From positions 1 through 26,089 of the IMG/VR virus record IMGVR_UViG_3300044630_004124: DNA of 26,089 nt; one strand, 5' to 3'. Every line of letters begins with the position of its first letter. The first letter of the stretch is position 1. The notes beneath the pieces were generated by a model. The model ran no database searches and was not told the DNA's origin. It saw only the letters and a list, made by a program, of their open reading frames with translations. Both the position numbers and the translations under genes were made by a program. The stretch comes from a virus. This document shows positions 2,501-24,575 of the stretch, piece by piece.

Positions 2501-3435
2501 ATATTATTTAGTTTTGAAAGTACTAAGTCATCCCATCCGGTTTCTTTAGCTCCTTTCAATAGTTCGTTTACTTTTTCAAATCCCATTTCACCAGCATCTT
2601 TATCAGTTGGTATAATATTCCTTACTCTAATCCCATTCTTCTGAAACCATTCCGTATGTTTAGTAGAATCATCAACGGCATCAGAATCTAACATAATAGT
2701 TACATCCTTAACACCTTTTTCCATAATTTTATTTTTCAATTTGCTAAGTAGGAATTTACCTAACAATGGAATCACATTTCTCTTTACTGAAAATGAATCA
2801 AACACACCCTCTACCAAAGTTATAGGTTCGTTCCAATTAATTTGATTCTCAAACACAATTACATCTCTACTAATTGGTGGATTCTTATACTTCATTTTGT
2901 CATCCTCATAAAAAGAGCGTGCCACAAAGTAGTTAAGTTCGCCACTATCATCATAAGATGGAATAATTACTCTACCACCATACAACCCATCCTCACAATA
3001 TCCGATATTATGTTTTACAATATCTGCTTTCTTAATACCCCTTTTATTTAAGTAGTGTATAGCTTGATTATAGATTGGATTAAATGAACCAGTTGGTTTA
3101 AAATATAATTGTTTAAATTCTTTTGGTAATTGTAATTTAGCTACATATTCTTCTTTCGAATCATATTCAGGCTCATCACCATATACATCCCTAACCTTAT
3201 TCAGGTCTCTAATATCTACATTGAGTTTGCGTAGTAGTGAATATATACTTCTACCCTTAGAATCACATACCCAGCAGTGCCATCTTTGAGTATCTAAGTT
3301 TATTTGAAGTTTCTTTTTATGGTGATTACAAAATGGACAATGGTGTGCCTGTTCATTTCCTTTGAGAGATGAACCTACACCTAGCGTAGAATCTAATATT
3401 GTGATTATTTGTAATTTATTTCTACCAGATAGCAT
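2497..3435 (-). CDS. DNA primase, gp61/DnaG-type (zinc finger plus Toprim)
   Basis: Predicted 312 residues from ATG at 3435. The protein would make RNA primers for lagging-strand synthesis. The N-terminus has a zinc-binding site, CPFC (33-36) with CWVC (54-57), as in DnaG and phage primases. The C-terminal half has a Toprim fold: the VEGVFDS glutamate motif, then MLDSD with DxD, then TDKDAGEMG, which resembles the end of the T4 gp61 Toprim region. A longer version begins at TTG 3465, but a promoter-like sequence (3455-3486) covers that codon, so I prefer the ATG. No helicase domain is fused. The stop overlaps the next gene's start (ATGA), tying priming to the recombination nuclease. No primase-helicase partner is visible in the window. 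Confidence 0.88.
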   Translation of the reverse strand: MLSGRNKLQIITILDSTLGVGSSLKGNEQAHHCPFCNHHKKKLQINLDTQRWHCWVCDSKGRSIYSLLRKLNVDIRDLNKVRDVYGDEPEYDSKEEYVAKLQLPKEFKQLYFKPTGSFNPIYNQAIHYLNKRGIKKADIVKHNIGYCEDGLYGGRVIIPSYDDSGELNYFVARSFYEDDKMKYKNPPISRDVIVFENQINWNEPITLVEGVFDSFSVKRNVIPLLGKFLLSKLKNKIMEKGVKDVTIMLDSDAVDDSTKHTEWFQKNGIRVRNIIPTDKDAGEMGFEKVNELLKGAKETGWDDLVLSKLNNI

Positions 3436-3454
3436 GATTTGGATATTATTATCA

Positions 3455-3486
3455 CAAATATACAAAAAATACCTGATATAACCAAA
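3455..3486 (-). promoter_or_regulatory. Bacteroidota-type promoter (TTTG -33 box, TATATTTG -7 box)
   Basis: On the minus strand TTTG (3486-3483) is followed 20 bases later by TATATTTG (3462-3455). This matches the known Bacteroidota consensus TTTG-N19-21-TAnnTTTG. Transcription would begin near 3449, leaving a leader of about 14 bases before the primase ATG at 3435. It is the only full match I found in a gap. It would drive the primase and the Mre11-Rad50 fusion. Confidence 0.6.
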
Positions 3487-7195: not shown

Positions 7196-10100
7196 TTAAT
7201 CAACTTCAAGTATTGGTTCACCACTACCTCTACCAGTCTTAGCCACTCTAAGAATGTTAGGATTGGTTGTAAATGTTTCTACTGGAGATAACCCGTCCGG
7301 CGTTGTTGCCGCTGTTTGTTGCGAACCCTTAAAGTATGAACGTTGTAATCCTTCACCCAATCCATTAACAAACTTATAGTGAGTAGGAAGGTATCCGTTA
7401 ATAGCTGTTACTTCAGTTACACCACCACCAACATTTACACTACCACTAAAAGGAAGAATGGATACATTATATTTTTCATAAGAGGTTACAATATTATCAT
7501 AAACAATTGGACCGGATGTTGTTGCGGGATAACCACTTATTTGAGTTCTTTGTTTTATAAATTTAGTTTCTTTTACTAAAAATGCACTAACTCTACTACC
7601 TGTTGTTTCTAAGTTTCCAAACAAATCATCCCATTGTCTATATACAGAATTTCCGTGCTTAGCATATAATCCAAATCCTATATTAGCCAATGAATTCTTA
7701 TCCATTCCAATTGCTGTGATTGAACTACCCTCCACTTCACCTATTAAACTTGCACCGGTTGGACATTCAATATGAACTGACCCAACATTTGGATATGTAG
7801 GGAATTCGGTTTCTAAAATATTAACCGAATCATACTGCACCAACCCATCATAGTTTGGATTTGTTGATTCTAATATAATTGAATCCGTTTCATCAATTAC
7901 ACTTTCATAATTATTTAAATCAGAAACTAAACTACCAACATCAGATGTATTTACAATACCTTCTGTATTTTTTACTTCTAGCTCAATTTTGTTGTTATCA
8001 GATGTTGTTATTGTTGAATCGTAATCATTTCTTAAAGATTCCGGTTTATCCCATCTTACTTTACTTCTTTCCAAAAAGTGTGGTTCAATTAATAACCCCT
8101 TTGATACAATTGCTCTAGCCGGAGCTAAATCAGTCAATACATCAAATAATGATTTATCAATATATCTTACAAGTCTGATATATTCGTAGATATTTCTATT
8201 TTGTAATCTTTGGAAATAATACTCTCTTAGTTTTTCAAGCTCACCATAAGAATTTTTATATTCATCTCTTGGGTCACCAATATAATTATCAATATTAAAA
8301 TCACCAAATGATTTTAGAATATCCATATTTAACTCCTTAGTTGGAGAAAAGAATAATCCTAAACGATTTGAATCTATCGGAGCTCTATCAAATGCTTTTT
8401 TAGTTGCTCTAACTTTGTGTGAAAGATTTCCAACTAATTCTTGTGATTCAAATCTAATTTTGTTTCCATAGGTTAATCCTAATGATGGTACATTTGCAGT
8501 TACAGTTCTATCGTATGGTGTGTACTGATATGGGTACGTTGATGCTGAATAGAAGTTTTGAGCGTAAGCAAAATTTTCATTATAAGAATTGTTAATAGAA
8601 ACATTCTTTATATTGTTATCAGCTGTTCTATCTTTAGGATATTCAAAATCCAAACGGAATATTAAATCCGAAGTAGATGCTGTATATGAGTTACCATTAA
8701 TAGCGTCAGGAAATAATGTATGATTATCAAACTTACTTCTTTGTAGAGGAACTGTCCATAAACGGAATTCATCTATATTACCTTCGTATCCATTTCCACC
8801 CAAAACTAAATTTTGAGTAGAACCAGTTTCCCATTGGTTATCATTGTACAAGATTGACATACTAACCGATGTAACAATTCTTTGCCCATCGGAAGTTGCT
8901 AACCAAACTTCATATAAAGAACTACTATTTGCGTAATTTGTTCTATTAATTGCAACATTAGAATAATGTTGAGTTGACATTGGGAAATCTAAACTTCCTG
9001 TTTTTAAATCAGGTCCAAAAACATAAATTATTGATGATGTTATATAAGGTATATTTGGTCCAGTACTAGCAAAGTAAGGACTGGTTGCATCGTTTCCACC
9101 AAAATTTAATTCTAATTTACAAAACGAACCAGTAGTTTGTATCAAATCTAAAGTCCATTCGCTTCCAGAAATTAAAGTTGCTACTGGGTTTATTACATCA
9201 GGCTTTATTCTAAATTCAATACCATCAGGTAATGTACCCAAAGAAGTTGTATGCCATGGAATTCTTATACTTGATTCCTCATCCAATCGTATAGCTGCCG
9301 TTCTATCATCAAACGTAAATTGAGTAACTCCACCATTTGTTGGGTCTTGTGGCCCACCAAATTCCATTATTGTCAACATAGATTGTGGTACACCATAACA
9401 AGCCATAATAGCTTTCATAGCTCTAGAAGTACCTTTATGTTTTAATAGATATGGTAAGTTATTTGCAATTCTTCTCCAAACTTCAAAATTTGCATCTTGT
9501 AAACTTGTTGAATATTTTTGAGAACCATCCATATCAGTTCCAAACATATACTCCCAAAGGAATTGAGAGTCAAATGCTTTTTTAGATTTCCAACCAAGAG
9601 ATTCAAGTAATGAATATATTAAAGTATTAGGAATACCAACCTCTTGTTTGTGTTCTAATTTTTTTACACTTTTTATAGAATTAATATAAGACCAAATTAT
9701 ATCAAAATGCTGACCTATCATATCTAAGAAAAGAATAAAATCATCATTTTCATTACTATTTGTAAGATATTCAGGTATATTATTTTTTAAAGCATTTACA
9801 TTGTACTTATCATAATTTTCACCATAGGAAACTGCAGATTCATACCAACCAACTGCATCATTTGATGTAGATAATTTTGGAAATCTATAAGTAACACCAG
9901 TCCCAATATCTGTATAATTTTCTTTTGGATATGCTAATGTATCTTCATTTTTATATAGATACGTTTCAAATCCATCAAAAGTTGAAATTAAGTTATTAAT
10001 ATCTTCTGATAATTTATGTGCTTCAGCATTACCATATTTAGAACCAGTTAATGGAGCTTGAACTATATATTTTCTACCTGTTATATTAAAATATTTAGTT

Positions 10101-12409
10101 TGATATATTTCTAATGTTTTTATTTTGTAATAAAAGTTATTTACTCGCTCAGTACCAGACCCATAATGAACAAAATTTTCCCAAGCATAATCAGAACCAG
10201 ATACATAAGTTATATTTAGCTTTTCAGTATCGATTGCTGTTTTTTCGGATATTTTATTTACAAGGTTAGAGTGTGCAAATGAACCACTTCCAACTAAATC
10301 AGAAAATAATTGATAACCTATTCCATTATCCGCCTCTATTGAAAAATTTGGACCTTTTAGTGGAGGACAATATAGTTCTTCTTCTCCGCTAAGTGTAATC
10401 GTTTCAATAATTGGATTTGCCTGTAATTTAGAAATCCATATTTCTTGATTTGTTTGTACCGTTGTTGGTAATGGTTCATATAATTTTAATATTAATGAAT
10501 CATCATCATCAACCCAAGTTGTTATTACTTTATTGTCACCATTTCCAAAATGAGCTAAGTGAGTTAAATATTTTGATGTTTCATCATCAAAAATACTCAT
10601 ATCAAATTGGGATATAAATCCATCTGCTATTCTACTAACAACAACTTCTTTTGGTATTGTTATATCACCTTTATCAAACTTAATTGAAATATATTCAGAG
10701 TCCCCAACTAAAACCTGTCTTCCACTTTTATTTATGGGTACAAGTTTTAAACTTAGAGAAATTAAATCATCATCTTCGGATACAGATATATTAAAATTTT
10801 CTAATAAAGATTTAAAATTAAATGTTTGTTGTGTTATACCATTCTGCTTACATGCAATTTGCATGAAGTTACCACCATCAAGTTGTGTATTTCCGCTAAT
10901 GTTAGAATCCGAACTTAATGCATATAATCTTAACTCATCTGTATTTACTGTCTCATATTCGATTGAAAATTCAACATCAGTTCCAACGTAATCAGGTCCT
11001 TTTAGTAAAGATGGGTATCTTATATTTCTAATATCAGGAGTTCCAACATAAACATCATCAACAACATTTAAAATAAATTGAATAGAATCACCACCCGTTT
11101 CGTTACTTGATGGAACTAATATTATTTTATATTGACCTGGTTGAGAAAAGTAATTATGTGGGATTACTATTGTTGCACTTGTTTCTCCTTGATTTAATTG
11201 ATACTCAATTGATTCTTTATTAACATAAGCTATTAAAGAAGTAGTGTTACTACTTTTTAACAATCCAATAGGAAAATGTGCATTGGAATTTTTATTATAA
11301 GCTTTTTTTAATTCTTCTTCATTTGAAAAAGAGATAGATGGATAATTTATTGGAGTTATAACAACAATTTCACTATCAACATCAATTGTTAAATTTGAAT
11401 TTACATCTATATTACCACTTATACTTTCTAATTGGCTTTGAGCTTCCGTTACAATAGTTTCTACTGTGTTGTTTGCAGAGATTCTTAAAAGTCTGTATAG
11501 TTCTGCATTAGTTGTACTTATAATAAGCTTTGTTCCTGCTGCAAATTCAAAATTATTTGCTCCCGCTTGTAAATTTATTGGTATTGTTCTTATTTCAGCA
11601 TTAGTTGCTAACAATTGAGCAGAGTCACCAATGCCATTAAGATTAATACCAACTTTAAATAAAGTAGGTGGTGCTGGTGGGTCTAAAACTACATCTACTA
11701 TTTCTGGTTTAGTGTTATCAAATTTTATTGTTATGGATGCACTTCCCGCATCATAATTAAAAACTTGCTCAACTCCATTTATTAAATGCCTTACTCTCAT
11801 AACAAAACCAGGTTGAGCAGAATAAACATCTTGTCTTCCTGTGTTTGGTATGTATGGTTGTCCATAGAAAGTTACACCAGATGGTGCTTCAACTCTACCA
11901 AGTTCACCAAATGTTAAATTTGGTAAATTATTAAAATCTTGATAACCATATAAACTACTATAAGGGTCAACCTTAATTGTAGATAGAGGTTGTGTATATG
12001 GTATATAATTTGGATTAGTTACAACATCAAATATATATTCATCGTTAAACTTATATCCAGTTTTATTTAAAGTAATTGAAACAGGTTGTATTACTAATTC
12101 TTCGGTAGTTAGAGTTATTGAATTATTTGTTGTTGCAAAAGTATTCGCTCCATTTCTTATAATAGAACAACCATCGATGGAAGATTGTATATAAATTAAT
12201 TTTCCTAAATTACTATTCGCTAAACCAGGTTCGTTAGATATGGTAATTGTACCACCACCGCCGCCACTTATAGTTCCTCCTCCACCACTGCCACCTCCAC
12301 CTAAATCAATAGCAACAGCTGCGTCTTGTGTAAAGAAACCTTTGACAGCCTGTCCATCATTTAATAGACCACCATCTAAACTAAAATCATTTGTTCCTAC
12401 ATACACCAT
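7196..12409 (-). CDS. Giant baseplate/tail protein with tail-protein-I-like module and LamG-like domain
   Basis: 1737 residues. After a short N-terminus comes a glycine-rich linker (about 37-53), then a long beta-rich region (to about 850) that looks like immunoglobulin-type repeats. Around 886-1010 is a helical module (FLDMIGQHFD, then NNLPYLLKHKGTSRAMKAI and CYGVP) matching phage tail protein I and its relatives, which join the baseplate J/gp6 ring to fibres. About 1032-1225 is a concanavalin/LamG-like jelly roll (FTFDDRTAAIRL, then IEFRIKP, then GNGYEGNIDEFRLW). About 1350-1455 (FFSPTKELN, then ALAPARA-like LAPARAIVSKGLLIEPHFLE) continues the gpI-type family. It probably attaches or forms fibres at the baseplate periphery and may bind host glycans. 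The module placement is from motif recognition, so boundaries are rough. Confidence 0.75.
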   Translation of the reverse strand: MVYVGTNDFSLDGGLLNDGQAVKGFFTQDAAVAIDLGGGGSGGGGTISGGGGGTITISNEPGLANSNLGKLIYIQSSIDGCSIIRNGANTFATTNNSITLTTEELVIQPVSITLNKTGYKFNDEYIFDVVTNPNYIPYTQPLSTIKVDPYSSLYGYQDFNNLPNLTFGELGRVEAPSGVTFYGQPYIPNTGRQDVYSAQPGFVMRVRHLINGVEQVFNYDAGSASITIKFDNTKPEIVDVVLDPPAPPTLFKVGINLNGIGDSAQLLATNAEIRTIPINLQAGANNFEFAAGTKLIISTTNAELYRLLRISANNTVETIVTEAQSQLESISGNIDVNSNLTIDVDSEIVVITPINYPSISFSNEEELKKAYNKNSNAHFPIGLLKSSNTTSLIAYVNKESIEYQLNQGETSATIVIPHNYFSQPGQYKIILVPSSNETGGDSIQFILNVVDDVYVGTPDIRNIRYPSLLKGPDYVGTDVEFSIEYETVNTDELRLYALSSDSNISGNTQLDGGNFMQIACKQNGITQQTFNFKSLLENFNISVSEDDDLISLSLKLVPINKSGRQVLVGDSEYISIKFDKGDITIPKEVVVSRIADGFISQFDMSIFDDETSKYLTHLAHFGNGDNKVITTWVDDDDSLILKLYEPLPTTVQTNQEIWISKLQANPIIETITLSGEEELYCPPLKGPNFSIEADNGIGYQLFSDLVGSGSFAHSNLVNKISEKTAIDTEKLNITYVSGSDYAWENFVHYGSGTERVNNFYYKIKTLEIYQTKYFNITGRKYIVQAPLTGSKYGNAEAHKLSEDINNLISTFDGFETYLYKNEDTLAYPKENYTDIGTGVTYRFPKLSTSNDAVGWYESAVSYGENYDKYNVNALKNNIPEYLTNSNENDDFILFLDMIGQHFDIIWSYINSIKSVKKLEHKQEVGIPNTLIYSLLESLGWKSKKAFDSQFLWEYMFGTDMDGSQKYSTSLQDANFEVWRRIANNLPYLLKHKGTSRAMKAIMACYGVPQSMLTIMEFGGPQDPTNGGVTQFTFDDRTAAIRLDEESSIRIPWHTTSLGTLPDGIEFRIKPDVINPVATLISGSEWTLDLIQTTGSFCKLELNFGGNDATSPYFASTGPNIPYITSSIIYVFGPDLKTGSLDFPMSTQHYSNVAINRTNYANSSSLYEVWLATSDGQRIVTSVSMSILYNDNQWETGSTQNLVLGGNGYEGNIDEFRLWTVPLQRSKFDNHTLFPDAINGNSYTASTSDLIFRLDFEYPKDRTADNNIKNVSINNSYNENFAYAQNFYSASTYPYQYTPYDRTVTANVPSLGLTYGNKIRFESQELVGNLSHKVRATKKAFDRAPIDSNRLGLFFSPTKELNMDILKSFGDFNIDNYIGDPRDEYKNSYGELEKLREYYFQRLQNRNIYEYIRLVRYIDKSLFDVLTDLAPARAIVSKGLLIEPHFLERSKVRWDKPESLRNDYDSTITTSDNNKIELEVKNTEGIVNTSDVGSLVSDLNNYESVIDETDSIILESTNPNYDGLVQYDSVNILETEFPTYPNVGSVHIECPTGASLIGEVEGSSITAIGMDKNSLANIGFGLYAKHGNSVYRQWDDLFGNLETTGSRVSAFLVKETKFIKQRTQISGYPATTSGPIVYDNIVTSYEKYNVSILPFSGSVNVGGGVTEVTAINGYLPTHYKFVNGLGEGLQRSYFKGSQQTAATTPDGLSPVETFTTNPNILRVAKTGRGSGEPILEVD

Positions 12410-14724: not shown

Positions 14725-15795
14725 TTAATCCTTTACAACATTAAAAGTTAATTCAGTATCTATATATTGAGAACCATTTATTCCATCAATTTTAAATTCT
14801 ATTTTATAAACCCTATCAGATTGCCAATTTGTAAAATCAATAGTAATATAGTTTCCATTAGAATCACAATTAATTTTTGAATATTCGGAAAACGGAATTA
14901 TAACATCATTACTTGCAAAATCTCTTATCTGATAATATGAGTTCTTAGGTAAATATTTTATTGTATTATATGCAAAAGAATTTGTAAATGTTTTCAATGG
15001 ATACATTTCTCTTGCAAATATTCTCATAGAAATTGTTGAATTTACTTTATATTCGTTTTTTAAATTAGTAATACCAACTTTAATATTATCCGAAACTAAT
15101 TCAGATAAAGAACCTGTTAAATACGATTGGTCATCCCAACCTACTATAATTTTTGGTTCATATATTGTATGCGTTTCTTTACTAAATAATTTTACAATTC
15201 CATAATCATTTACATCATTTTCTTTATCATTTGCAAACTTAATCATCAAACCATCATTAGGTATAGAACCACTCATCCATGCTTTTAACATATCAGTAAC
15301 ATCCATACTAATATCAGCTGTACTATAATTAAACGATTGAGATGCTGCGTTATATGTGTACCAAGTACCACCAGTTCCATCATTTGGATTTGATGTAGTA
15401 CCTACTGCTAAATTGTTTTCTAACCATTCTAATCTAGTATCTCCTTCTCTATATTTCCAAGTAACACCACCAGTAGATATATCATCGAATCGAGTTCCCT
15501 TACCCATATTCCAACTTCCAGATATTGCGTATGCGTACAATGTATAATCTAAAGGAATTTCTTCACTTTCAGTTTCTTTTAATACCAAATAAGCATTTTT
15601 CATTTTTACAGAACCATCAGATAATGATTTTGATAAATGACCAACATCAAATTTTAGTAATGCTCTTGAAACATCTTTAACTGTTCCATAAAATATCTTG
15701 CTTACCTCTAATATTTCATCCAATCCAGTATTTTGATTTGGTTGTTGAAGATATATTGTTGCATCCTTTGATGCTGTCATGAAATAGTATGCCAT
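14725..15795 (-). CDS. Phage structural protein with DNRLRE/CBM96-like jelly roll
   Basis: 356 residues. The N-terminal 220 residues show the pattern of DNRLRE/CBM96-type beta sandwiches: SKDATIYLQQ at the start, SRALLKFDVGHL, LYAYAISGSWNMG, then SMDVTDMLKAWMSG with NDGLMIKF. These domains bind polysaccharide or act as adhesive modules in secreted proteins and phage fibres. The C-terminal 130 residues are a second beta-type domain of unknown family. There is no catalytic motif or signal peptide. The start overlaps the gp6-like stop by one base (TAATG), so the two are translationally coupled. A baseplate-linked adhesin or fibre component is the best inference. Confidence 0.68.
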   Translation of the reverse strand: MAYYFMTASKDATIYLQQPNQNTGLDEILEVSKIFYGTVKDVSRALLKFDVGHLSKSLSDGSVKMKNAYLVLKETESEEIPLDYTLYAYAISGSWNMGKGTRFDDISTGGVTWKYREGDTRLEWLENNLAVGTTSNPNDGTGGTWYTYNAASQSFNYSTADISMDVTDMLKAWMSGSIPNDGLMIKFANDKENDVNDYGIVKLFSKETHTIYEPKIIVGWDDQSYLTGSLSELVSDNIKVGITNLKNEYKVNSTISMRIFAREMYPLKTFTNSFAYNTIKYLPKNSYYQIRDFASNDVIIPFSEYSKINCDSNGNYITIDFTNWQSDRVYKIEFKIDGINGSQYIDTELTFNVVKD

Positions 15796-17831
15796 TATCG
15801 TACTCTGCCTTTTATATCCGAATCCGGAAATTTAATTTCAAATATAGATGGGTCTAATGAAGGATATACAATTTTATCTTTTGTAGCCGCTTCTATATTA
15901 TATGAATTAGGAGAATAATTATCTCCACATTTATTTTCAATTCGTATAAAAGGAACGGATGATACACCTTCAACATTTGCAATTAACAATTCAACCTCAC
16001 TTAAATTAATAGTTTGATTAAATTGCCAATTATCTATATTAAAATAACTTTTTAATTCACTTATGCATTTAGCTAAAGTTTCACTTTTATTATAGTTCTG
16101 ATAGACTGTTATTTGAAAGTCTATTCCAATATTGATAATGAAACCATCACTCATATTAATTCCATCTGTTAAGATTTTGTATTCATTTAAATAAGTTTTT
16201 AAATTTTCCTTAACTGCTCTATTTAATGGTGCTAATCTACCATTTTGGTCTAAACCTAATAAATAAAGATTAATTGCGAATGGATTGTTTTTTTCATTTT
16301 CGTTAGAAGTTTTTCCAATTAAATATTTTTGAATATCGTCCTGTACAGTCCTTATAGATGGTTCTTCTCCATCTGGTTTATTTACAAAACTCATTACCAA
16401 ATCCGTAAACTCTTGTAACGCGTTTGGTGATGATAAAATTGATGCAGGTGAATTATTATCTAATTTACCATCAGCTATTGCATAAGATTTGGCTACTGCT
16501 CCAAATTTGGTTGGCATTGATAATACTCTAACTTGATAATCTTTAGTAGTTACTGCTCTATTTTGTGCTCCAAAATTTGCTAAAGCATTTTGTCTAATTT
16601 CTTCTAAGGTTTCACCACCCCTACCACCAGAAGCTCCAATTTCATTATCAACCGCTACTGAATTTTTTGTAGCATTGTATATTGCTAATTCAATACTATT
16701 TAATTTTTGAACATCTTCTTCAAATTCGATACCTCTTATTCTTGTAAGCTCACCAACTGAAATATTTGAATTTACACCTCCACCCACTAAATATCTAACT
16801 GTGATAGTTGTCATAGCTGGAGATGTTCCGTATGTTTTTGTTTTCAAAAAGTTAGTAGGGTCAAACGATTCATCTAACTTATCTATTGAATTAGGAAGTC
16901 CCAATCCAACATTTTTTAAATTTGGTATTAAAGTTTCATCACTAGCGGACGGGTCTCCTGCACCAAATTGAATTGTCATAGTAGAATCTTCATTTACTTT
17001 TAATACGAATCTTTTTGGTGTTTTTATTGTTTTTAAAATATATGGTACAGTATCTTTAAACTGATATAAATCTGTATCATTTGCTTCTGTGTTTGGTTGT
17101 TGTATAAAAACCATTTCTTGTGCTAAATACGGAACTTCATACCATTTGTTTCCATTACTATCTCTAACATCGTATATATCAATGATATTAGTATCATTTA
17201 AAACTATCTTTTGAAAAGGTTCATAATTACCAAAAGTAAATGTTTGCTCAACCATTGTAGCTGAAATGCATTGTACAAACTTTTTTATCAAATAAAACGT
17301 TGGTTCTCCTGTAATAGAATCTCTTTGATATATTGTTATACCTCTATCGGTTGGGTCACTAAAATCCACTACATCCGTTGTTCTAAATTCTAAATCATCT
17401 CTTGATGATTCAACAGCCATACCTTCTCTAATTCTTAAAAAATACTTTTCATCTGGTCTATTATTCAAACCACTACCTATTGATGGTACTAATTGATAAA
17501 CAGATAATGTTGTTACCGCAGGTGCTGTTACCTTTGGTTTGTATCCCAAATATTGAGCTAATGCCAATACATTTCTAGTATCTTCAGCAGTAGACATCAT
17601 TGACTCTTTTAATGTATCATCAATATAATACGAAAGAGTATCACCTATATATGATGCCATTTCAATAAACATCATACCAGGAGATGATTCATTGAAATCA
17701 GAATAAGTTCTAGGAAAATAAGTTTTAGTAAACTCTATTAGATTTTCTTTAAATCCATAAAAGTCTTTTCCGATATATTTTATATCTTTACCCTTATTCC
17801 TAAAATTTTTATTTGTAGTAGTTAATGCCAT
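15795..17831 (-). CDS. Baseplate wedge protein, gp6/J-like
   Basis: 678 residues, close to T4 gp6 in size. Features of the gp6/baseplate J family are clear: an N-terminal helical part with FNESSPGMMFIEMASYIGD (about 46-64), LAQYLGYKP near 90, and a central block VGELTRIRGIEFEED followed by the GGRGGETLEEIRQNA motif and AVTTKDYQVRVLSMP (about 402-440). In the virion these proteins dimerise to form the ring joining wedges around the hub. It follows the gp25 homologue by 10 bases, as W precedes J in P2-like phages. The start is ATG behind an A-rich leader. Well supported. Confidence 0.92.
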   Translation of the reverse strand: MALTTTNKNFRNKGKDIKYIGKDFYGFKENLIEFTKTYFPRTYSDFNESSPGMMFIEMASYIGDTLSYYIDDTLKESMMSTAEDTRNVLALAQYLGYKPKVTAPAVTTLSVYQLVPSIGSGLNNRPDEKYFLRIREGMAVESSRDDLEFRTTDVVDFSDPTDRGITIYQRDSITGEPTFYLIKKFVQCISATMVEQTFTFGNYEPFQKIVLNDTNIIDIYDVRDSNGNKWYEVPYLAQEMVFIQQPNTEANDTDLYQFKDTVPYILKTIKTPKRFVLKVNEDSTMTIQFGAGDPSASDETLIPNLKNVGLGLPNSIDKLDESFDPTNFLKTKTYGTSPAMTTITVRYLVGGGVNSNISVGELTRIRGIEFEEDVQKLNSIELAIYNATKNSVAVDNEIGASGGRGGETLEEIRQNALANFGAQNRAVTTKDYQVRVLSMPTKFGAVAKSYAIADGKLDNNSPASILSSPNALQEFTDLVMSFVNKPDGEEPSIRTVQDDIQKYLIGKTSNENEKNNPFAINLYLLGLDQNGRLAPLNRAVKENLKTYLNEYKILTDGINMSDGFIINIGIDFQITVYQNYNKSETLAKCISELKSYFNIDNWQFNQTINLSEVELLIANVEGVSSVPFIRIENKCGDNYSPNSYNIEAATKDKIVYPSLDPSIFEIKFPDSDIKGRVR

Positions 17832-17841
17832 TTTTTATTTA

Positions 17842-18264
17842 TTATACTGTAAAAGTTACCTGATTTAAATCGGGAGTATTAGCCACACCAAATGTAATTG
17901 AAATTTCAACCTGATTTCTATCTTTGTTTTCGTTTGATTGTGCTACATCTATTTGTCGTATATCAACATAAGGTAACCAATTCGTAATAGATTCTGTGAT
18001 TATTTCTTCAATCTTAACAGCTAACCTATCATCGTTAAAATCAAATAATAATTCCTGTAAACCACTACCAAAATTAGGTTGCAATAAACGTTCACCTTTT
18101 TTAGTTAATAGTAAATTTTTAATATTTGAACTAACTTGCTCTTTTGTTGTAAATGATTGATTAAAAGCGGTATTTCCTATTTGTATTGGCAATGTTATTC
18201 CTATCGCATAATCTTGAAATGTTGCGGTATCTTGAACTAATTTTTGCCCTAATACAATTGCCAT
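17842..18264 (-). CDS. 25: Baseplate wedge protein gp25-like (P2 W, lysozyme-like fold family)
   Basis: 140 residues, the usual size of gp25 homologues. The family block is evident: SNIKNLLLTKKGERLLQPNF, then GSGLQELLFDFND, then an alpha/beta tail ending in EISITFGV. In T4, P2 and related contractile machines gp25 sits in the baseplate wedge and primes sheath assembly. The start shares one base with the previous stop (TAATG). The next gene is the gp6/J homologue, matching the conserved W-J order. No catalytic role is expected. Confidence 0.93.
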   Translation of the reverse strand: MAIVLGQKLVQDTATFQDYAIGITLPIQIGNTAFNQSFTTKEQVSSNIKNLLLTKKGERLLQPNFGSGLQELLFDFNDDRLAVKIEEIITESITNWLPYVDIRQIDVAQSNENKDRNQVEISITFGVANTPDLNQVTFTV

Positions 18265-18819: not shown

Positions 18820-20043
18820 TTACACCTGTAAGGAATAGTTGTCCACTTTAACCAATGCTTCAGTAGCCAAAAATCCTTTACCACCTCTTTTAATAGCAGT
18901 ACCAGCAATCATACTTGTTACTAATACGTTTGCATTAGCTTGAGTAGGCCCAACTGCAGAAATTCCTGTTAATTTTGACATATATGGTATTCCATTTTTT
19001 ATATACCATGCTGTGGTATCCGCCGCAGTTTGTGGTTGAAGTGCTAAATCAGGATTTGTTACAAGTCTAGTATCTTTATATAATGCCAAAGAAGCTGCTG
19101 TGTAATTAGCTTTGCCTGTAAGTTGTATAAATCCTCTACCTCTATATTTGTAGCCATCTCCTGCTGCAGTATTACCCAATCCCTTTCCTACCTTTCCACT
19201 ACTAACTCCATATATTGCATCAGTAAATAATGGTGTATTTTTCTTTAATTGAGTTAATTGGTCTTCTGTATATTTTGCAACTCTAGAACCAAATATTTCT
19301 CTGATTCTGGAATTTGCCGTTCGCCCATAACCAGCTAAGTCTTCAACTATTACTTGACCTCCAGATTCTTTTAGTGAGTTTGCTTTCACAGCCTTAATCA
19401 TTGCTGCATCGGTTACACCAATTTTAATTAGTGCCGCCTCCATCAATTTTAAATTTTGAGATTGTGGTAATTTTTTAATAACTGGTTTAGGTTCTGTATC
19501 TCCTACAAAAATACTCTGAATATCAGACTCGCCTGTTGTATTAAATGTCATAATAGGGTCTGGTGTAATTGTAGCACCTTCCCCATAGATACTAGTTTGT
19601 TTTTTTTGTAGTGTAAGTTCTTTAAGAGTTTCTCTTATAATTTCAGGTTCTTCAATTTGTTCTTCAAGATTACTAACATAATTTGTTATTATTTCTTCAT
19701 CCAATTCTGTAGAAAATGTACCAGATTGTAATATTTCTTTAGCTTCGCCTAAATTTTGACGTATTAATTCTTCTTCTGTTTTAATTTGTCCCTTTAAGTC
19801 TTCTTCTTCTTCTTCAGTAAGTTCCGATTGTTGTAATGAATTTATTGCAACGGAAGGCATTGCAGGTGTTACGAAATACCCTGTCCAATTTACAACAGAT
19901 GGTAATATTATAGGACTTGGTGCACTTGGAAATACAGAAGTAGTATTTATTACTCCAGTAATCGTAGTTAAATGCTGTTGTGCATATCTAATAAATTCTT
20001 CAATTATTTTTGGTGTATTTTTACTAGGTGGTACTGCTGCCAT
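18820..20043 (-). CDS. GH19-type muramidase/chitinase-like enzyme, virion-associated lysin
   Basis: 407 residues. About 190-400 is a glycoside hydrolase family 19 domain. KESGG (E226) fits the general acid, a second glutamate follows at E234, and GDGYKYRGRGFIQLTG (295-310) is the family signature. Phage GH19 enzymes cut the glycan strands of peptidoglycan. The first 190 residues are not catalytic: a proline-rich start, then an acidic, coiled-coil-prone part (TEEEEEDLKG). There is no signal peptide, and it sits between the M15 peptidase and baseplate genes. I therefore infer a tail-associated wall-degrading enzyme, though a cytoplasmic lysis endolysin is possible. It starts 8 bases after the M15 gene. 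Confidence 0.85.
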   Translation of the reverse strand: MAAVPPSKNTPKIIEEFIRYAQQHLTTITGVINTTSVFPSAPSPIILPSVVNWTGYFVTPAMPSVAINSLQQSELTEEEEEDLKGQIKTEEELIRQNLGEAKEILQSGTFSTELDEEIITNYVSNLEEQIEEPEIIRETLKELTLQKKQTSIYGEGATITPDPIMTFNTTGESDIQSIFVGDTEPKPVIKKLPQSQNLKLMEAALIKIGVTDAAMIKAVKANSLKESGGQVIVEDLAGYGRTANSRIREIFGSRVAKYTEDQLTQLKKNTPLFTDAIYGVSSGKVGKGLGNTAAGDGYKYRGRGFIQLTGKANYTAASLALYKDTRLVTNPDLALQPQTAADTTAWYIKNGIPYMSKLTGISAVGPTQANANVLVTSMIAGTAIKRGGKGFLATEALVKVDNYSLQV

Positions 20044-20051
20044 TTTGTTTA

Positions 20052-21974
20052 TTACTTTTTAGCCATGTTTCTCTTTTGCGCAATAGTATATTGCGGATTT
20101 TTTCTGGGTGTTTCTGCAAATTGCTTCATTAATGCCTTTCTTTGGTCACCTGTTAATGTACTAAATCCTTTATATTCCCAATGCCAAGTTTCATCTGGTT
20201 TTGCACCATCACACAAAGAGGATGGATTATACCATCCAAATTTAGGTGCATGTGCTGCAAAAAATTTGTACAAAGCTGTGGCTCTTACAACTTGATTTGG
20301 TTTTGGTTGAGTAGCTGATACTCCTAATTTTTTTGCTGCTGCTTCGGTTTGTATGCATAAAGTACGAACATCAACAGCTATACCCCAACCATGATTAGAC
20401 CAGCCAGGTGTAGCCGCCCTTCCAGCTTCCATAGTGTTCCACAATCTAACTTGGTTTTCATAATCTCTATAAAATCCTCCTCCTGGAGTAAATTCAACAT
20501 CTATTGAGTTTTCTGTTAAAAAATCTAAAAACAATTCAAATGTAGCTGCTGCTTCTGGATGTAAATATACCGTACCTTCTATATATCCCGGTCTAACTAT
20601 TTTTCTCATAGCTTCATAGGGAATGCCACCATTAATTCCATCGGCTTTATTAGCTCCTTTTCTTGGGGTTTTACTTCGGTTAGTTGCTACATATTTTTCA
20701 AAACCAGGTGGAGCTCCGTTATCTGCGGTTGCTCCCACATTTGTATATATTTGAGGTTCACCACCACCCCCATTGGATTCTTTTGTAGGTGGTTTATAAA
20801 ATTTCTGCGATGCTAAACTAGCTTTTTGAGAACCAACATATTTTAATGCACCCCAATGGTCTATACCGCTTGGTGTTTTTGATGCTCCAACGATTCCAGT
20901 ACCTCTAGCCGCACCAGGACCAACATACACATTACTAGCTGGTACTCCATTTTTTATTGCATTGTCTATTATTTTTTTACTATTTGCCGATTCTACCCAA
21001 GGTTCTATTATAAATAAATTATTGTTATCTACTAAATTACTTTTTGAAAGTGATTCAGCCCTTTCACATCCTTTACTGAATAAAAATACAGGTAGTTTGG
21101 GATTTTCCGATAAAAACGTTGTTATATTAGCTACAGTGGCACCATATACAAATGATTTAATCTTTACATTTCCAAATCCCTGTTTAAACAATTCTTCTTG
21201 TTGGTCAATTTTTAAATCACCACTTCTATTATCAAGACCACCAACTAAAACTGCTTTAAATTCAGATTCTACTTGAGTTTGATTTTGTGAGAACGTTGGT
21301 TCAGGAAGTTGTGTTATATCTATTGTACCCGGTAAAGGTAATCCTGCATCATAGTCAATAACTTCGGGATTTTGTATTAGTTCTAATGTTGCAGTTGGTA
21401 GTGGTGGAAATCCACCGGCATCAAATTCTTCTTGCAAATTATCTCCAAAGTTTTGTGCTTCTAATTGAACTTCTTCTTCCGTTATTGGTGAATCACTAGC
21501 TGCGTTTTCCGTAGAAGGCATATCTATATCATTTGCAATAGAAAATTCATCAGGTTCATCATTAAAAGTATATAGTTCAGTTCCAGGTATAGGTTTTATC
21601 CATTGACCGGGATTCAAAACCATATTTGATGTTACGGAAACGTTTGCAGTTGCACCGGGTGGTAATTGTAATGGTAACGGAACATTTTGCATTATAGCAC
21701 CACTCCAATACGCAATAACACCTTTACCCATTTCCCCAACTAAATCATACGGAGCAGTTGATGATAATCCTTTTTGTAAAGCAGATTTAAATAACTGCTC
21801 CATAGGTTCTTTTTTACCATTTTGTATTTTTATTTTATTAATGGTATCACCACCTCTTTTTATAGCAGCATCGTATTCATCAGCCCATTTTTTAGCAACT
21901 TTATCAATATCGCTTATATTTTCTGGGTTGTCATAAAAACTTACCATATTGTCTTTAAATACTTGCCAAGACAT
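20052..21974 (-). CDS. M15 (VanY/VanX-like) peptidase with extra N-terminal and central domains
   Basis: 640 residues. The C-terminal third is an M15 D-Ala-D-Ala carboxypeptidase/L-Ala-D-Glu endopeptidase domain. SNHGWGIAVD (526-535) supplies zinc ligands H528 and D535, and ExWH (E595, H598) supplies the catalytic glutamate and third ligand, followed by WEY. It would cut peptidoglycan peptides. The N-terminal 130 residues (KKWADEYDAAIKRGGDTI, then APYDLVGEMGKGVIAYWSGA) match a block I recognise from marine phage proteins. Residues 238-390 form a separate alpha/beta domain of unknown type. Between them are acidic linkers. No signal peptide is seen. The neighbours are a peptidoglycan-binding protein and GH19, so it is probably part of the tail wall-penetration set. 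Confidence 0.87.
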   Translation of the reverse strand: MSWQVFKDNMVSFYDNPENISDIDKVAKKWADEYDAAIKRGGDTINKIKIQNGKKEPMEQLFKSALQKGLSSTAPYDLVGEMGKGVIAYWSGAIMQNVPLPLQLPPGATANVSVTSNMVLNPGQWIKPIPGTELYTFNDEPDEFSIANDIDMPSTENAASDSPITEEEVQLEAQNFGDNLQEEFDAGGFPPLPTATLELIQNPEVIDYDAGLPLPGTIDITQLPEPTFSQNQTQVESEFKAVLVGGLDNRSGDLKIDQQEELFKQGFGNVKIKSFVYGATVANITTFLSENPKLPVFLFSKGCERAESLSKSNLVDNNNLFIIEPWVESANSKKIIDNAIKNGVPASNVYVGPGAARGTGIVGASKTPSGIDHWGALKYVGSQKASLASQKFYKPPTKESNGGGGEPQIYTNVGATADNGAPPGFEKYVATNRSKTPRKGANKADGINGGIPYEAMRKIVRPGYIEGTVYLHPEAAATFELFLDFLTENSIDVEFTPGGGFYRDYENQVRLWNTMEAGRAATPGWSNHGWGIAVDVRTLCIQTEAAAKKLGVSATQPKPNQVVRATALYKFFAAHAPKFGWYNPSSLCDGAKPDETWHWEYKGFSTLTGDQRKALMKQFAETPRKNPQYTIAQKRNMAKK

Positions 21975-21980
21975 ATTTTA

Positions 21981-23336
21981 TTAACTTAATTTTCTCATAT
22001 TAATTATATCTGGGTGGCTGGACTTATTCCTATTTATAAGGTCTTGTACGGCATCTTCTTCTTTATAATTTTTATTAAATGATGCTCCATCAATCCTAAC
22101 CCCATCTTTATATACCGTAACTCTCGGTTTTTTATCAATTACTCTATATTCGTATGTGTACCCTAATTGAGATTGTGGTGTTGGTTCTTTACCTCCATTT
22201 ACACTAGAACCCTTCATAACTTTTTTTGCATTTTCCATAGCTTGATTTGCTTTATCAAATTTTGGTTTTGCAGAATCCAAAGCCTCTTTAGAAGATTCTT
22301 GTAAAACTTTTAATTTTTCTTCCTGTACTTTAGATATATTTGTCATTAAATTTGTGGTAAGTGTACCGGGTACATTTGATATAGCATTAGTAACTTGGCC
22401 TTCCAAACTAGTAATAGTATTTATTGTCCCACCAACTACGTTTCCTACCGAAGTGGTTACCGTACCTACCGCATTTTGAACTGCGTTTGTAGCTTGATTT
22501 ACAGTATTTTGTATATCGTTTTTAGCTTTTTCTGCTGCTTTTTTTATTTTATCCGCTTCAGCCTTATAACCAGCAGCAGTATCTTTTAATTGATTTGCAA
22601 ACGCTTTAGCTGCGGCTAATTTATCTTTTAATTTTTTCTTTTTTTTCTCTATTTTGGGTTCAGGTAACTCCTTCTTTTTAAACTTAGGTAATTTTGGTAA
22701 TTGAACTTTTGGTATTTCAATTTTTGGTAATTGTTTTGGAAATGCATCTTTTAGATTTTTTCCAACATCCTTCATACCTTCTAATTGCTGTTTAGCGTTA
22801 TTAGCTATATCCTTTCCAGCTGAACTAATATTTCCACCTAATGTTTTTCCTAAATTTTTTGCAGTATCACCTATTGCAGTACCAGCTCCACCAAGAAAAC
22901 TACCTGCTGCATTTTGTCCAGCTATATTTGATAATGTTTGTGGTTGCCAGTTTTTAATATTATCTTGTGCTTTTTGTTGTAGTTGTTGTAAATTTTCAGT
23001 AGATAATGTGAAGGTTGGTAATGGTGGTCTAGCTAAACTAGTTAAAGTTGCTAATTTTGATACTTCTGCTTTTGGTAAAACATTTAATTTATCCCAAGTA
23101 TTTTTACCAACAACACCATCTGCTGTTAATCCATTTTTCTTTTGAAATGCTTTTACAGCTTCTTCCGTTTTAGGTCCGAATATTCCTAATGGTTCTACAC
23201 CCAATTTAGTTTGTAGTAGTTTAACAGAATCATTTTTATCACCCCTTCGTATTGTTGGTAATTGAGTTTTAGGTGCGGCAGAACCAGATGGAACTAATAA
23301 TGCCGGCGTATTTGTAGGAGTTATTACGTTTGACAT
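21981..23336 (-). CDS. Peptidoglycan-binding (PG_binding_1) protein with long helical repeats
   Basis: 451 residues. Residues about 30-85 are a PG_binding_1 domain: RRGDKNDSVKLLQTKLG, GIFGPKTEEAVKAFQKK and ADGVVGKNTWDKL. The rest is mostly helix and repeats: alanine- and lysine-rich stretches, a proline/lysine run (about 201-235, PKIEIPKVQLPKLPKFKKK), then coiled-coil-prone segments (about 240-375). A small C-terminal domain (about 390-451, YTYEYRVIDKKPRVTVYKDG) is beta-type. It has no catalytic residues, so it would anchor or guide wall-degrading partners. It lies 6 bases from the M15 gene and 3 bases from the spike gene. A tape-measure-like fibrous role is an alternative for the middle part. 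Confidence 0.82.
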   Translation of the reverse strand: MSNVITPTNTPALLVPSGSAAPKTQLPTIRRGDKNDSVKLLQTKLGVEPLGIFGPKTEEAVKAFQKKNGLTADGVVGKNTWDKLNVLPKAEVSKLATLTSLARPPLPTFTLSTENLQQLQQKAQDNIKNWQPQTLSNIAGQNAAGSFLGGAGTAIGDTAKNLGKTLGGNISSAGKDIANNAKQQLEGMKDVGKNLKDAFPKQLPKIEIPKVQLPKLPKFKKKELPEPKIEKKKKKLKDKLAAAKAFANQLKDTAAGYKAEADKIKKAAEKAKNDIQNTVNQATNAVQNAVGTVTTSVGNVVGGTINTITSLEGQVTNAISNVPGTLTTNLMTNISKVQEEKLKVLQESSKEALDSAKPKFDKANQAMENAKKVMKGSSVNGGKEPTPQSQLGYTYEYRVIDKKPRVTVYKDGVRIDGASFNKNYKEEDAVQDLINRNKSSHPDIINMRKLS

Positions 23337-23339
23337 TTA

Positions 23340-24575
23340 CTAAGATGTTTGATTTAATTTACTTAAAATTGTATTTAGCTTTGATTTTATTTTAGCTAAA
23401 GTTGGTACGTTTTCAGGTCCTACTTTAGTTGGGCCCGATGGTGTTAAATATTGTTGATTTGCTAAAGCATCTATAAGTTCCGCAAGAATATCAACTAAAG
23501 TTTGTCCTTTTACTAATGGTTCTAAGTTTTCGTTTCCTAAAAATATAGAACCTTTACCAGTATGAAATGCCACATTCCTATCGTTAGTTATTACATTAAA
23601 ATCATCCTTAACACTTATATCTATTCCTAATTTATTATCTATTGATAATCCACCATCTGAAATAAAACCATAATCTTTTTTAGAATAAAAAATCATTTCT
23701 CCACTTTTTGCAGAAAGTATGATTCTACCAGAGTTTACCAATATTTGGTCACCATTTAATTTTGATGGATAGTTAAAAAACGAATCCGGTTTTGTTTCAA
23801 AATTAGATTTACCTTTATCATCAATAACGCCTGGTTGAAATGGTAATTCATATTGGTCCGATGTGATTGCTATAATACTACCATCTCTATTTATATCTTC
23901 TTCTACTCCAAATTTTACAACTTTTTTTCTGGATTCGTTATTTTCATTATTTCTTATAATAATCGATGGTGAAAATTTTTTATTAGGATTGTTATATCCA
24001 CTAAATCTTATGGATTGTCCAAAACGACTTTCAATCAAACTATCACCTTCATATAACTTTAATTTATGTATACCGGGTGTTCTTGTAAAGTAATCACCCA
24101 ACCCATCATATTTTTTATTTTCATTAATATTACTTCTAACAGTACCAGTAGCCTCAACTTTTTTAATATCCTTTGTCTTATCGGAATCTGTGGGTACTGC
24201 TCCAAACGTTGTTGATATTAATTGTTCATCTGCTTGTGCATTTGGTGAAATTTCAATACCAATTCTTCTATATAATGTAACACCAGCAGAACTTTCATAT
24301 ATTTCTACTGTTTCGTTTCTGATAGGTATATTTTTGAAGTTTTTATCAAATGGATAAGCTACAGGTAAACTTCCTTTATCAGATGATGGTTGTGATGTTA
24401 GTTTATATAAAATAGCACCTATATAACTTGCTTCACTACCCACAACATCTTCTCTATTTTTAAGATACTCGTGGTTTTCATCTAATATAACACTATAAAC
24501 TACACCAAATCCCTTAGAAGTAGCTCCACCTAAAAGTTGTGCCGATAAACCAGCTGCTGCCTTTCCACTTTGCAT
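23340..24575 (-). CDS. Baseplate central spike/hub protein, gp5-like, without lysozyme domain
   Basis: 411 residues. The N-terminal part (FGVVYSVILDENHEYLK, then SYIGAILYKL and VTLYRRIGIE) has the layout of a gp5/VgrG OB-fold. A middle block, LYEGDSLIESRFGQSIRFSG, is familiar from T4-like spike proteins. Residues about 275-350 (QILVNSGRIILSAKSGEM, then GLSIDNKLGIDISV and KGSIFLG) form a beta-helix-like repeat, ending in VKGQTLVDILAELIDAL. In T4, gp5 also carries a lysozyme domain; none is seen here. The adjacent GH19, M15 and PG-binding genes may supply that function. The protein would pierce the outer membrane at tail contraction. Confidence 0.85.
   Translation of the reverse strand: MQSGKAAAGLSAQLLGGATSKGFGVVYSVILDENHEYLKNREDVVGSEASYIGAILYKLTSQPSSDKGSLPVAYPFDKNFKNIPIRNETVEIYESSAGVTLYRRIGIEISPNAQADEQLISTTFGAVPTDSDKTKDIKKVEATGTVRSNINENKKYDGLGDYFTRTPGIHKLKLYEGDSLIESRFGQSIRFSGYNNPNKKFSPSIIIRNNENNESRKKVVKFGVEEDINRDGSIIAITSDQYELPFQPGVIDDKGKSNFETKPDSFFNYPSKLNGDQILVNSGRIILSAKSGEMIFYSKKDYGFISDGGLSIDNKLGIDISVKDDFNVITNDRNVAFHTGKGSIFLGNENLEPLVKGQTLVDILAELIDALANQQYLTPSGPTKVGPENVPTLAKIKSKLNTILSKLNQTS

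Follow-up and report, generated by a model that had tools for sequence, protein, structure and literature searches.

A predicted minimal alpha/beta-hydrolase-like domain in baseplate-cluster and other proteins of uncultured phages

The 26,089-base IMG/VR virus record analysed here, referred to in its whole length as the window, encodes in its baseplate cluster a 640-residue protein whose central domain, which we call domain X, resembles a minimal alpha/beta hydrolase and probably acts like one; it belongs to no named family in the libraries searched. From its structural models and from the residues conserved among its relatives, we interpret domain X as hydrolase-like, with a Ser-Glu-His triad and an unusual nucleophile elbow, both the activity and the triad being predictions. 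As for its role, we lean slightly toward a virion-borne serine hydrolase that would act on the host envelope during entry, with catalysis, substrate and presence in the virion all predicted.

The host protein and its neighbours

The 640-residue frame is intact, running open from ATG to stop, and contains the peptides quoted in an earlier note on this DNA. The gene is encoded within a contractile-tail baseplate cluster (Table 1), where the phrog_261 and phrog_219 matches stand for what we take to be gp25 and gp6. The protein combines three parts, of which the N-terminal one, delimited by BLAST with X masked, would have an anchoring role. Domain X itself matches profile A3 at E 9.7e-64, a value to be read knowing that the window sequence is a member of A3. 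Relatives with as little as about 20% identity retain the domain in many protein contexts, which indicates that the frame is no chance frame.

Table 1. Features of the window that bear on domain X (aa, residues)
Feature	Residues	Position	Strand	Basis
640-aa baseplate-cluster protein (N-terminal anchor-like module, domain X, M15B (VanY) peptidase)		20052..21974	-	open frame; VanY PF02557 E 2.3e-10; gp6-/gp25-type neighbours
N-terminal module, named 'anchor'	1-152	21519..21974	-	BLAST with X masked
Domain X, alpha/beta-hydrolase-like	236-385	20820..21269	-	AlphaFold2 pLDDT 94.3; A3 profile; fold neighbours
Proposed nucleophile	S300	21075..21077	-	58/58 domains; opens helix after third strand
Proposed acid	E324	21003..21005	-	E 56, D 1, Q 1 of 58; directly after fourth strand
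Proposed base	H373	20856..20858	-	57/58, absent in L054; just before last helices
M15B / VanY peptidase domain	470-603	20166..20567	-	PF02557, 40.8 bits vs cut-off 25
Neighbour with endolysin / GH19-like domain		18820..20043	-	phrog_181 E 5.2e-26; Glyco_hydro_19 below cut-off
Neighbour with PG_binding_1		21981..23336	-	PF01471 E 1.9e-14
411-aa baseplate-cluster protein, spike-like by eye only		23340..24575	-	homologues L160, L039 carry X (BLAST E 9.1e-19, 6.0e-8)
gp25-type baseplate wedge subunit		17842..18264	-	phrog_261 E 3.3e-21
gp6-type baseplate wedge subunit		15795..17831	-	phrog_219 E 1.8e-20; 42.5% to Microcystis phage Mel-JY01

The 411-residue protein deserves a separate comment. Profile and PDB tests of its family returned no family match and no PDB match, and a gp5-like or spike identity was not borne out by them. 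Its homologues lie upstream of gp25 in Mel-JY01 and in Flavobacterium phage immuto.

Two other genes of the window, both on the minus strand, are recorded here in passing. One encodes a 1737-residue protein of the baseplate cluster (7196-12409) with no PHROGs match at E 0.01, and the other, downstream of the tail genes, is DNA primase-like (2497-3465; phrog_47, E 1.6e-49).

Predicted fold and conserved residues

AlphaFold2 folds the window's X as a single confident alpha/beta domain (pLDDT 94.3, pTM 0.91), and the same holds for the X of L072, which is 26% identical to it (pLDDT 95.2, pTM 0.92), the two models being built from overlapping alignments. L-numbers are used here as labels of the viral-contig loci that carry X relatives. 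The model of the window's domain agrees with the earlier note, which had described alternating strands and helices over residues 238-390, and sets the domain's bounds as given in Table 1: strands span residues 239-244, 271-275, 296-299, 320-323 and 349-351, and helices 256-267, 281-290, 300-310, 330-341, 375-383 and 385-389 (numbers in the 640-residue protein, equal to the AlphaFold2 domain number plus 231). The sheet has five strands in one model and six in the other and thus departs from the canonical alpha/beta hydrolase sheet, which has eight; minimal alpha/beta hydrolases, too, have fewer than eight.

The fold search that the note had proposed placed minimal alpha/beta hydrolases first. 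In the VIA comparisons they rank at the top for both models (Z 9.3 and 10.2), the leading neighbours being Lip_vut1, Bacillus subtilis LipA, 5cml and 2qjw, aligned over 136-151 residues with an rmsd of 3.2-3.9. One model has alpha/beta-hydrolase entries in all of its first eleven rows and the other in most of its first 29, with FrsA counted among them. Foldseek likewise retrieved the 5cml esterase (probability 1.00, TMq 0.64, E 9.2e-3) and a phage model annotated 'Alpha/Beta hydrolase fold' (probability 0.99, E 7.3e-3), with weak E-values throughout, none below 0.001. No sequence homology of X to a known hydrolase was detected in PDB sequences, in the family libraries or by hhalign, which gave E 0.34-0.46 against LipA.

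Other folds come close. The first row of both Foldseek PDB searches is the flavodoxin-like oxidoreductase 3k1y, and type II dehydroquinases, at Z 8.2 and 9.7, trail the leading hydrolases by only about 1; such a small lead would fit a parallel core shared by these folds. The rank of dehydroquinase, GmhA and flavodoxin-like chains near the hydrolases would suit a different chemistry on a flavodoxin-like sheet, for instance that of an isomerase, lyase or transferase acting on wall sugars, with the conserved Ser, Glu and His as ligands or acid/base residues. We consider such an enzyme distinctly unlikely, given that the top VIA rows are mostly alpha/beta-hydrolase entries in both models and that the order observed, with Ser at a strand-helix turn, an acid behind the following strand and a His late in the domain, is that of a hydrolase. 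It is this placement of S300, E324 and H373 that favours a hydrolase over the other folds.

Residue conservation was evaluated over 58 distinct domains, obtained from 60 unique X proteins by leaving out L027 (match below 120 residues) and L028 (same domain as L029). The serine of the FSKGC turn, which had been noted as following a strand, is invariant and opens the helix that comes after the third strand (strand 65-68 and helix from 69 in domain numbering). S300 therefore occupies the strand-helix turn that defines the nucleophile position of alpha/beta hydrolases, and we predict it to be the nucleophile. The absence of GxSxG was confirmed as well, since over the 58 domains the elbow reads [L/M/C/T/V]-[F/Y]-S-x-[G/S], chiefly L/M-F-S-x-G. 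The position two before the serine holds L in 41 domains, M in 12, C in 3, T in 1 and V in 1 instead of the usual Gly, a departure from the Sm-x-Nu-x-Sm elbow. The late histidine suspected from the window sequence alone proved to be H373, and E324, which the note had not named, is an acid in 57 of the 58 domains (the single Q is in L066). In addition, G246, Q259 and G358 are each present in all 58 domains and G302 in 56. In the AlphaFold2 model of the window's domain G246 directly follows a strand, and in the models G246, S300, E324 and H373 would share one edge of the sheet.

Of the residues proposed earlier to come together, S300, C303 and H373, all three letters are correct in the window and the serine and histidine hold across the family, whereas C303 is found in 47 domains only; a catalytic role for this cysteine is not supported, as 11 domains lack it. 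Similarly, of the two layouts suggested, alpha/beta hydrolase or SGNH-like, the first agrees with AlphaFold2 and VIA and the second was discarded. In SGNH hydrolases the serine follows the first strand, within a GDS block; in the window the first strand leads into GGLD, and the sole invariant Ser lies after the third strand.

Cysteines at columns 328 and 356 occur together in eight of the 58 domains (L072, L153, L070, L071, L031, L034, L150 and L122) and never singly. These eight rows form one clade (SH-aLRT 82), which argues for a single origin of the pair, and a possible disulfide is suggested. As a separate observation, the X of L054 (467-2434) lacks H373 and its neighbours, as in a decayed copy or an assembly fault.

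Relatives, carriers and partner domains

Domain X alone (165 residues) retrieved eight loci in viral contigs, and alignments of its relatives used as queries retrieved 34, 69, 72 and 49, in overlapping sets. A profile search of all fetched DNA yielded the 60 distinct X proteins, the window's included. By hand count the carriers lie on about 100 distinct viral contigs, some of which hold the same protein; the X protein of L040 recurs in many samples. The X gene of L027 (about 1645-2754) is broken into two frames, which is not the case in L025 and L026.

Known families gave no counterpart. X has no match at E 0.001 in PHROGs (eight members searched) or in Pfam and NCBIfam (the 50 of the 58 distinct domains that form alignment A6). 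The lowest values there, DUF7488 in Pfam (E 0.0039 in two of 50 members, and below the cut-off for L031) and AMEP412 in NCBIfam (E 0.0095 in four of 50), were taken as chance. PDB sequences gave no match at E 0.001 either, with none for alignment A1 and CheY (E 0.25) as the best for A6. With X and its relatives in L031 and L018 as queries, tblastn at E 1 retrieved nothing from 50,697 phage records, and the profile found X in none of the three records nearest by gp6 (Mel-JY01, immuto and LR756508). Two scans of genome contigs, with one narrow pattern each, confirmed none of 17 and none of 4 candidate stretches as cellular relatives. The family as found here thus appears to be one of uncultured viruses only, the bacterial scans being too narrow to prove absence from bacteria. 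Among the matches listed in open-licence papers, domain X is not named anywhere.

The carriers of X differ widely. With X masked, BLAST relates the window's N-terminal module (1-152) to residues 1-164 of L010 (43%), to residues 228-381 of L036 (28%, E 4.8e-10) and to L054 (28-29%, E 1e-8); in L036 and L054 X is placed before the anchor-like module, and L036 also carries DUF2272. L068 is a homologue of the N-terminus of the GH19-like neighbour with X as its cargo, residues 6-58 of the neighbour matching the piece that precedes X (BLAST 38%, E 8.2e-7). The homologues of the 411-residue protein have X at the C-terminus in L160 and at the N-terminus in L039. Three of the window's baseplate-cluster proteins thus have homologues that bear X elsewhere, the same carriers with other cargo.

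By sequence comparison the clearest tail fusion of X is L006, a homologue of T4 gp5: its residues ~542-644 align with T4 gp5 from the PDB (E 7e-21), the protein hits phrog_430, which is annotated 'baseplate hub subunit and tail lysozyme' (E 2.3e-53), and X stands at its end. Fusion to a recognised tail or baseplate protein, the mark of a virion-associated lysin, is thus found in L006; the window protein has gene position and carrier homology only. The hub, OB or spike character of several other carriers is a judgement by eye.

VanY stands beside X in the window, in L010 and in L008, a 1262-residue protein whose residues 1-862 gave no PDB match, and a stretch of L025 resembles the window's M15 (E 2.8e-27). 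PG_binding_1 lies above the cut-off in L059, L110, L122 and L170 and below it in L040 and L067, with LysM also present in L170. Taken together, these architectures indicate that X is a cargo moving among carriers and accompanied by wall-binding and wall-cutting domains. In this regard, a tree of the family implies 13 carrier changes among 7 classes, 6 of them between tail-fused and small proteins, as read from a quickly built tree, 23 of whose 55 inner branches are open, with hand-set labels, partly by eye, on 54 of the 58 rows (L031, L034, L037 and L122 left out) and no shuffle control.

The company of PG_binding_1 or LysM, together with the lack of a standard elbow, raises the question of whether X might merely bind. 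In such a binding or docking module for a glycan or cell-wall peptide, a Rossmann-like fold would use its S, E, H and Q to hold a ligand with no cutting. We regard this as unlikely. Single polar positions that end strands and stay almost invariant while identity falls to about 20% would sooner be expected of an active site; PG binding is, moreover, assigned to another protein of the window, and some versions of X comprise 169-178 residues with little else.

Some architectures are given for the record. In L150 (3998-7057) an N-terminal X is followed by collagen-like repeats (PF01391) and by a C-terminal stretch with GDS and a late His that recalls, by eye, an SGNH hydrolase. L122 (1079-8209, running off the contig end) encodes at least 2377 residues with PG_binding_1 and X inside and an N-terminus that is kinase-like by eye. 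In L031 (1209-3152) and L034, X follows a stretch resembling LNESIKNILREEL and precedes a region that recalls a ParB-like motif by eye.

More than half of the carriers (32 of 60) have at most 275 residues and, except for L068, show no recognised tail part. It is possible that these small proteins follow a packaged route. T4 internal proteins use L/I-X-E-type starts as capsid-targeting sequences, and T4 gp21 cleaves after L/I-X-E, according to one paper (PMC9026906). In line with this, [L/I]xE occurs in residues 4-25 of 30 of the 32 X proteins of at most 275 residues versus 4 of the 28 longer ones (one start-cut), a contrast drawn from a short motif and related rows, with a size limit chosen once the data had been seen and without a shuffle control. 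A T4-type S77 prohead protease and Gp23 were both found in the same 6 of the 11 records examined. On these grounds X could be mainly an injected effector: where a phage has a T4-type prohead protease, X would travel inside the head, led by a capsid-targeting sequence, and the tail fusions would be a second route. This is the least probable of the readings considered: the X gene of L046 is one gene away from a tail sheath gene, several small X proteins have a PG-binding domain, odd for a cytoplasmic enzyme, and the window protein has no such start.

Similar starts are shared by other, otherwise different genes of these phages (L087, 3131-13675; L093; L095; L097), with a sequence like MKIIITESQLKK. 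The corresponding pattern, [ST]E[SNQ][QE][LYF], occurs in the first 30 residues of 11 of 204 frames, one of them an X protein, versus 2 occurrences in 54,077 residues elsewhere, the pattern having been composed after seeing examples. This recurring start may be a virion or capsid targeting signal.

Proposed function and comparison with known systems

Returning to the serine hydrolase that we favour, we infer the course of its action, that is catalysis, oxyanion hole, substrate, virion presence of the window protein and timing, from the features described above. S300, placed where the third strand turns into its helix, would be the nucleophile, activated by H373, which E324 would in turn orient from its place after the fourth strand; main-chain groups near G246 and G302 would provide the oxyanion hole. 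As its gene belongs to the baseplate cluster and X is held between the anchor-like module and the VanY-type peptidase, X would reach the host envelope on tail contraction, alongside the M15, GH19-like and PG-binding proteins. The bond that X would cut there is an ester or amide, most probably one within peptidoglycan or linked to it, and its cleavage would let the tail tube pass. A second enzyme beside the M15 peptidase, as the earlier note had supposed, is likely. The partner domains of X point to peptidoglycan or another envelope layer, not specifically to surface glycan.

A broader proposal is possible but tentative: that X defines an undescribed family of virion-borne serine hydrolases of uncultured T4-like contractile-tail phages, that it cuts a novel envelope bond, for example a peptidoglycan-linked ester, and that it arrives by two routes, at the piercing tail end or as small head-packaged proteins behind a capsid-targeting-like start. 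Tail-borne wall enzymes are already known as a kind, mostly glycosidases, transglycosylases, amidases and peptidases; domain X is new to the family libraries and, among the matches listed, to the literature. A widely shuffled serine-hydrolase-like cargo, if it replaces or joins the known tail enzymes, would imply that the envelope of some uncultured hosts contains a bond worth a dedicated cutter. In addition, the X profile allows unknown proteins of environmental phages to be recognised, and the domain is small and can be tested through three named residues.

Among known systems, the predicted fold of X is, by a small lead, most like that of B. subtilis lipase A and other minimal alpha/beta hydrolases (1isp, 6nkc, 2qjw and 5cml; 136-151 residues, Z 8.9-10.2), and like the LipA-type enzymes X has a Ser at a strand-helix turn and a late His. 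It differs from them in having no sequence homology, no GxSxG, five or six strands and an occurrence, here, in phages only; moreover, its acid follows the fourth strand, whereas that of LipA lies later.

The type VI secretion Tle lipases are reportedly hydrolases delivered by the gp5-like VgrG spike, as X would be on a gp5 homologue. X is set apart by its size of about 150 residues, by being phage-borne and by its place beside wall-degrading domains.

Mycobacteriophage LysB, a mycolylarabinogalactan esterase, is of alpha/beta-hydrolase type and lies in some phages behind a PG-binding domain, according to two papers (PMC8309991, PMC7022511); X is likewise an alpha/beta-hydrolase-like phage domain with a PG-binding domain in some carriers. 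LysB, however, acts at lysis, and the tblastn search of the 50,697 phage records at E 1 gave X no sequence similarity to known phage LysB, that is to LysB- or cutinase-like esterases.

Finally, X resembles the T4 gp5 tail lysozyme and the virion-associated lysins in being an enzyme-like domain on a gp5 homologue (L006) and, in the window, in being encoded beside gp25- and gp6-type genes. It differs from the gp5 lysozyme in its predicted fold and in riding on several unrelated kinds of carrier, not on the spike alone.
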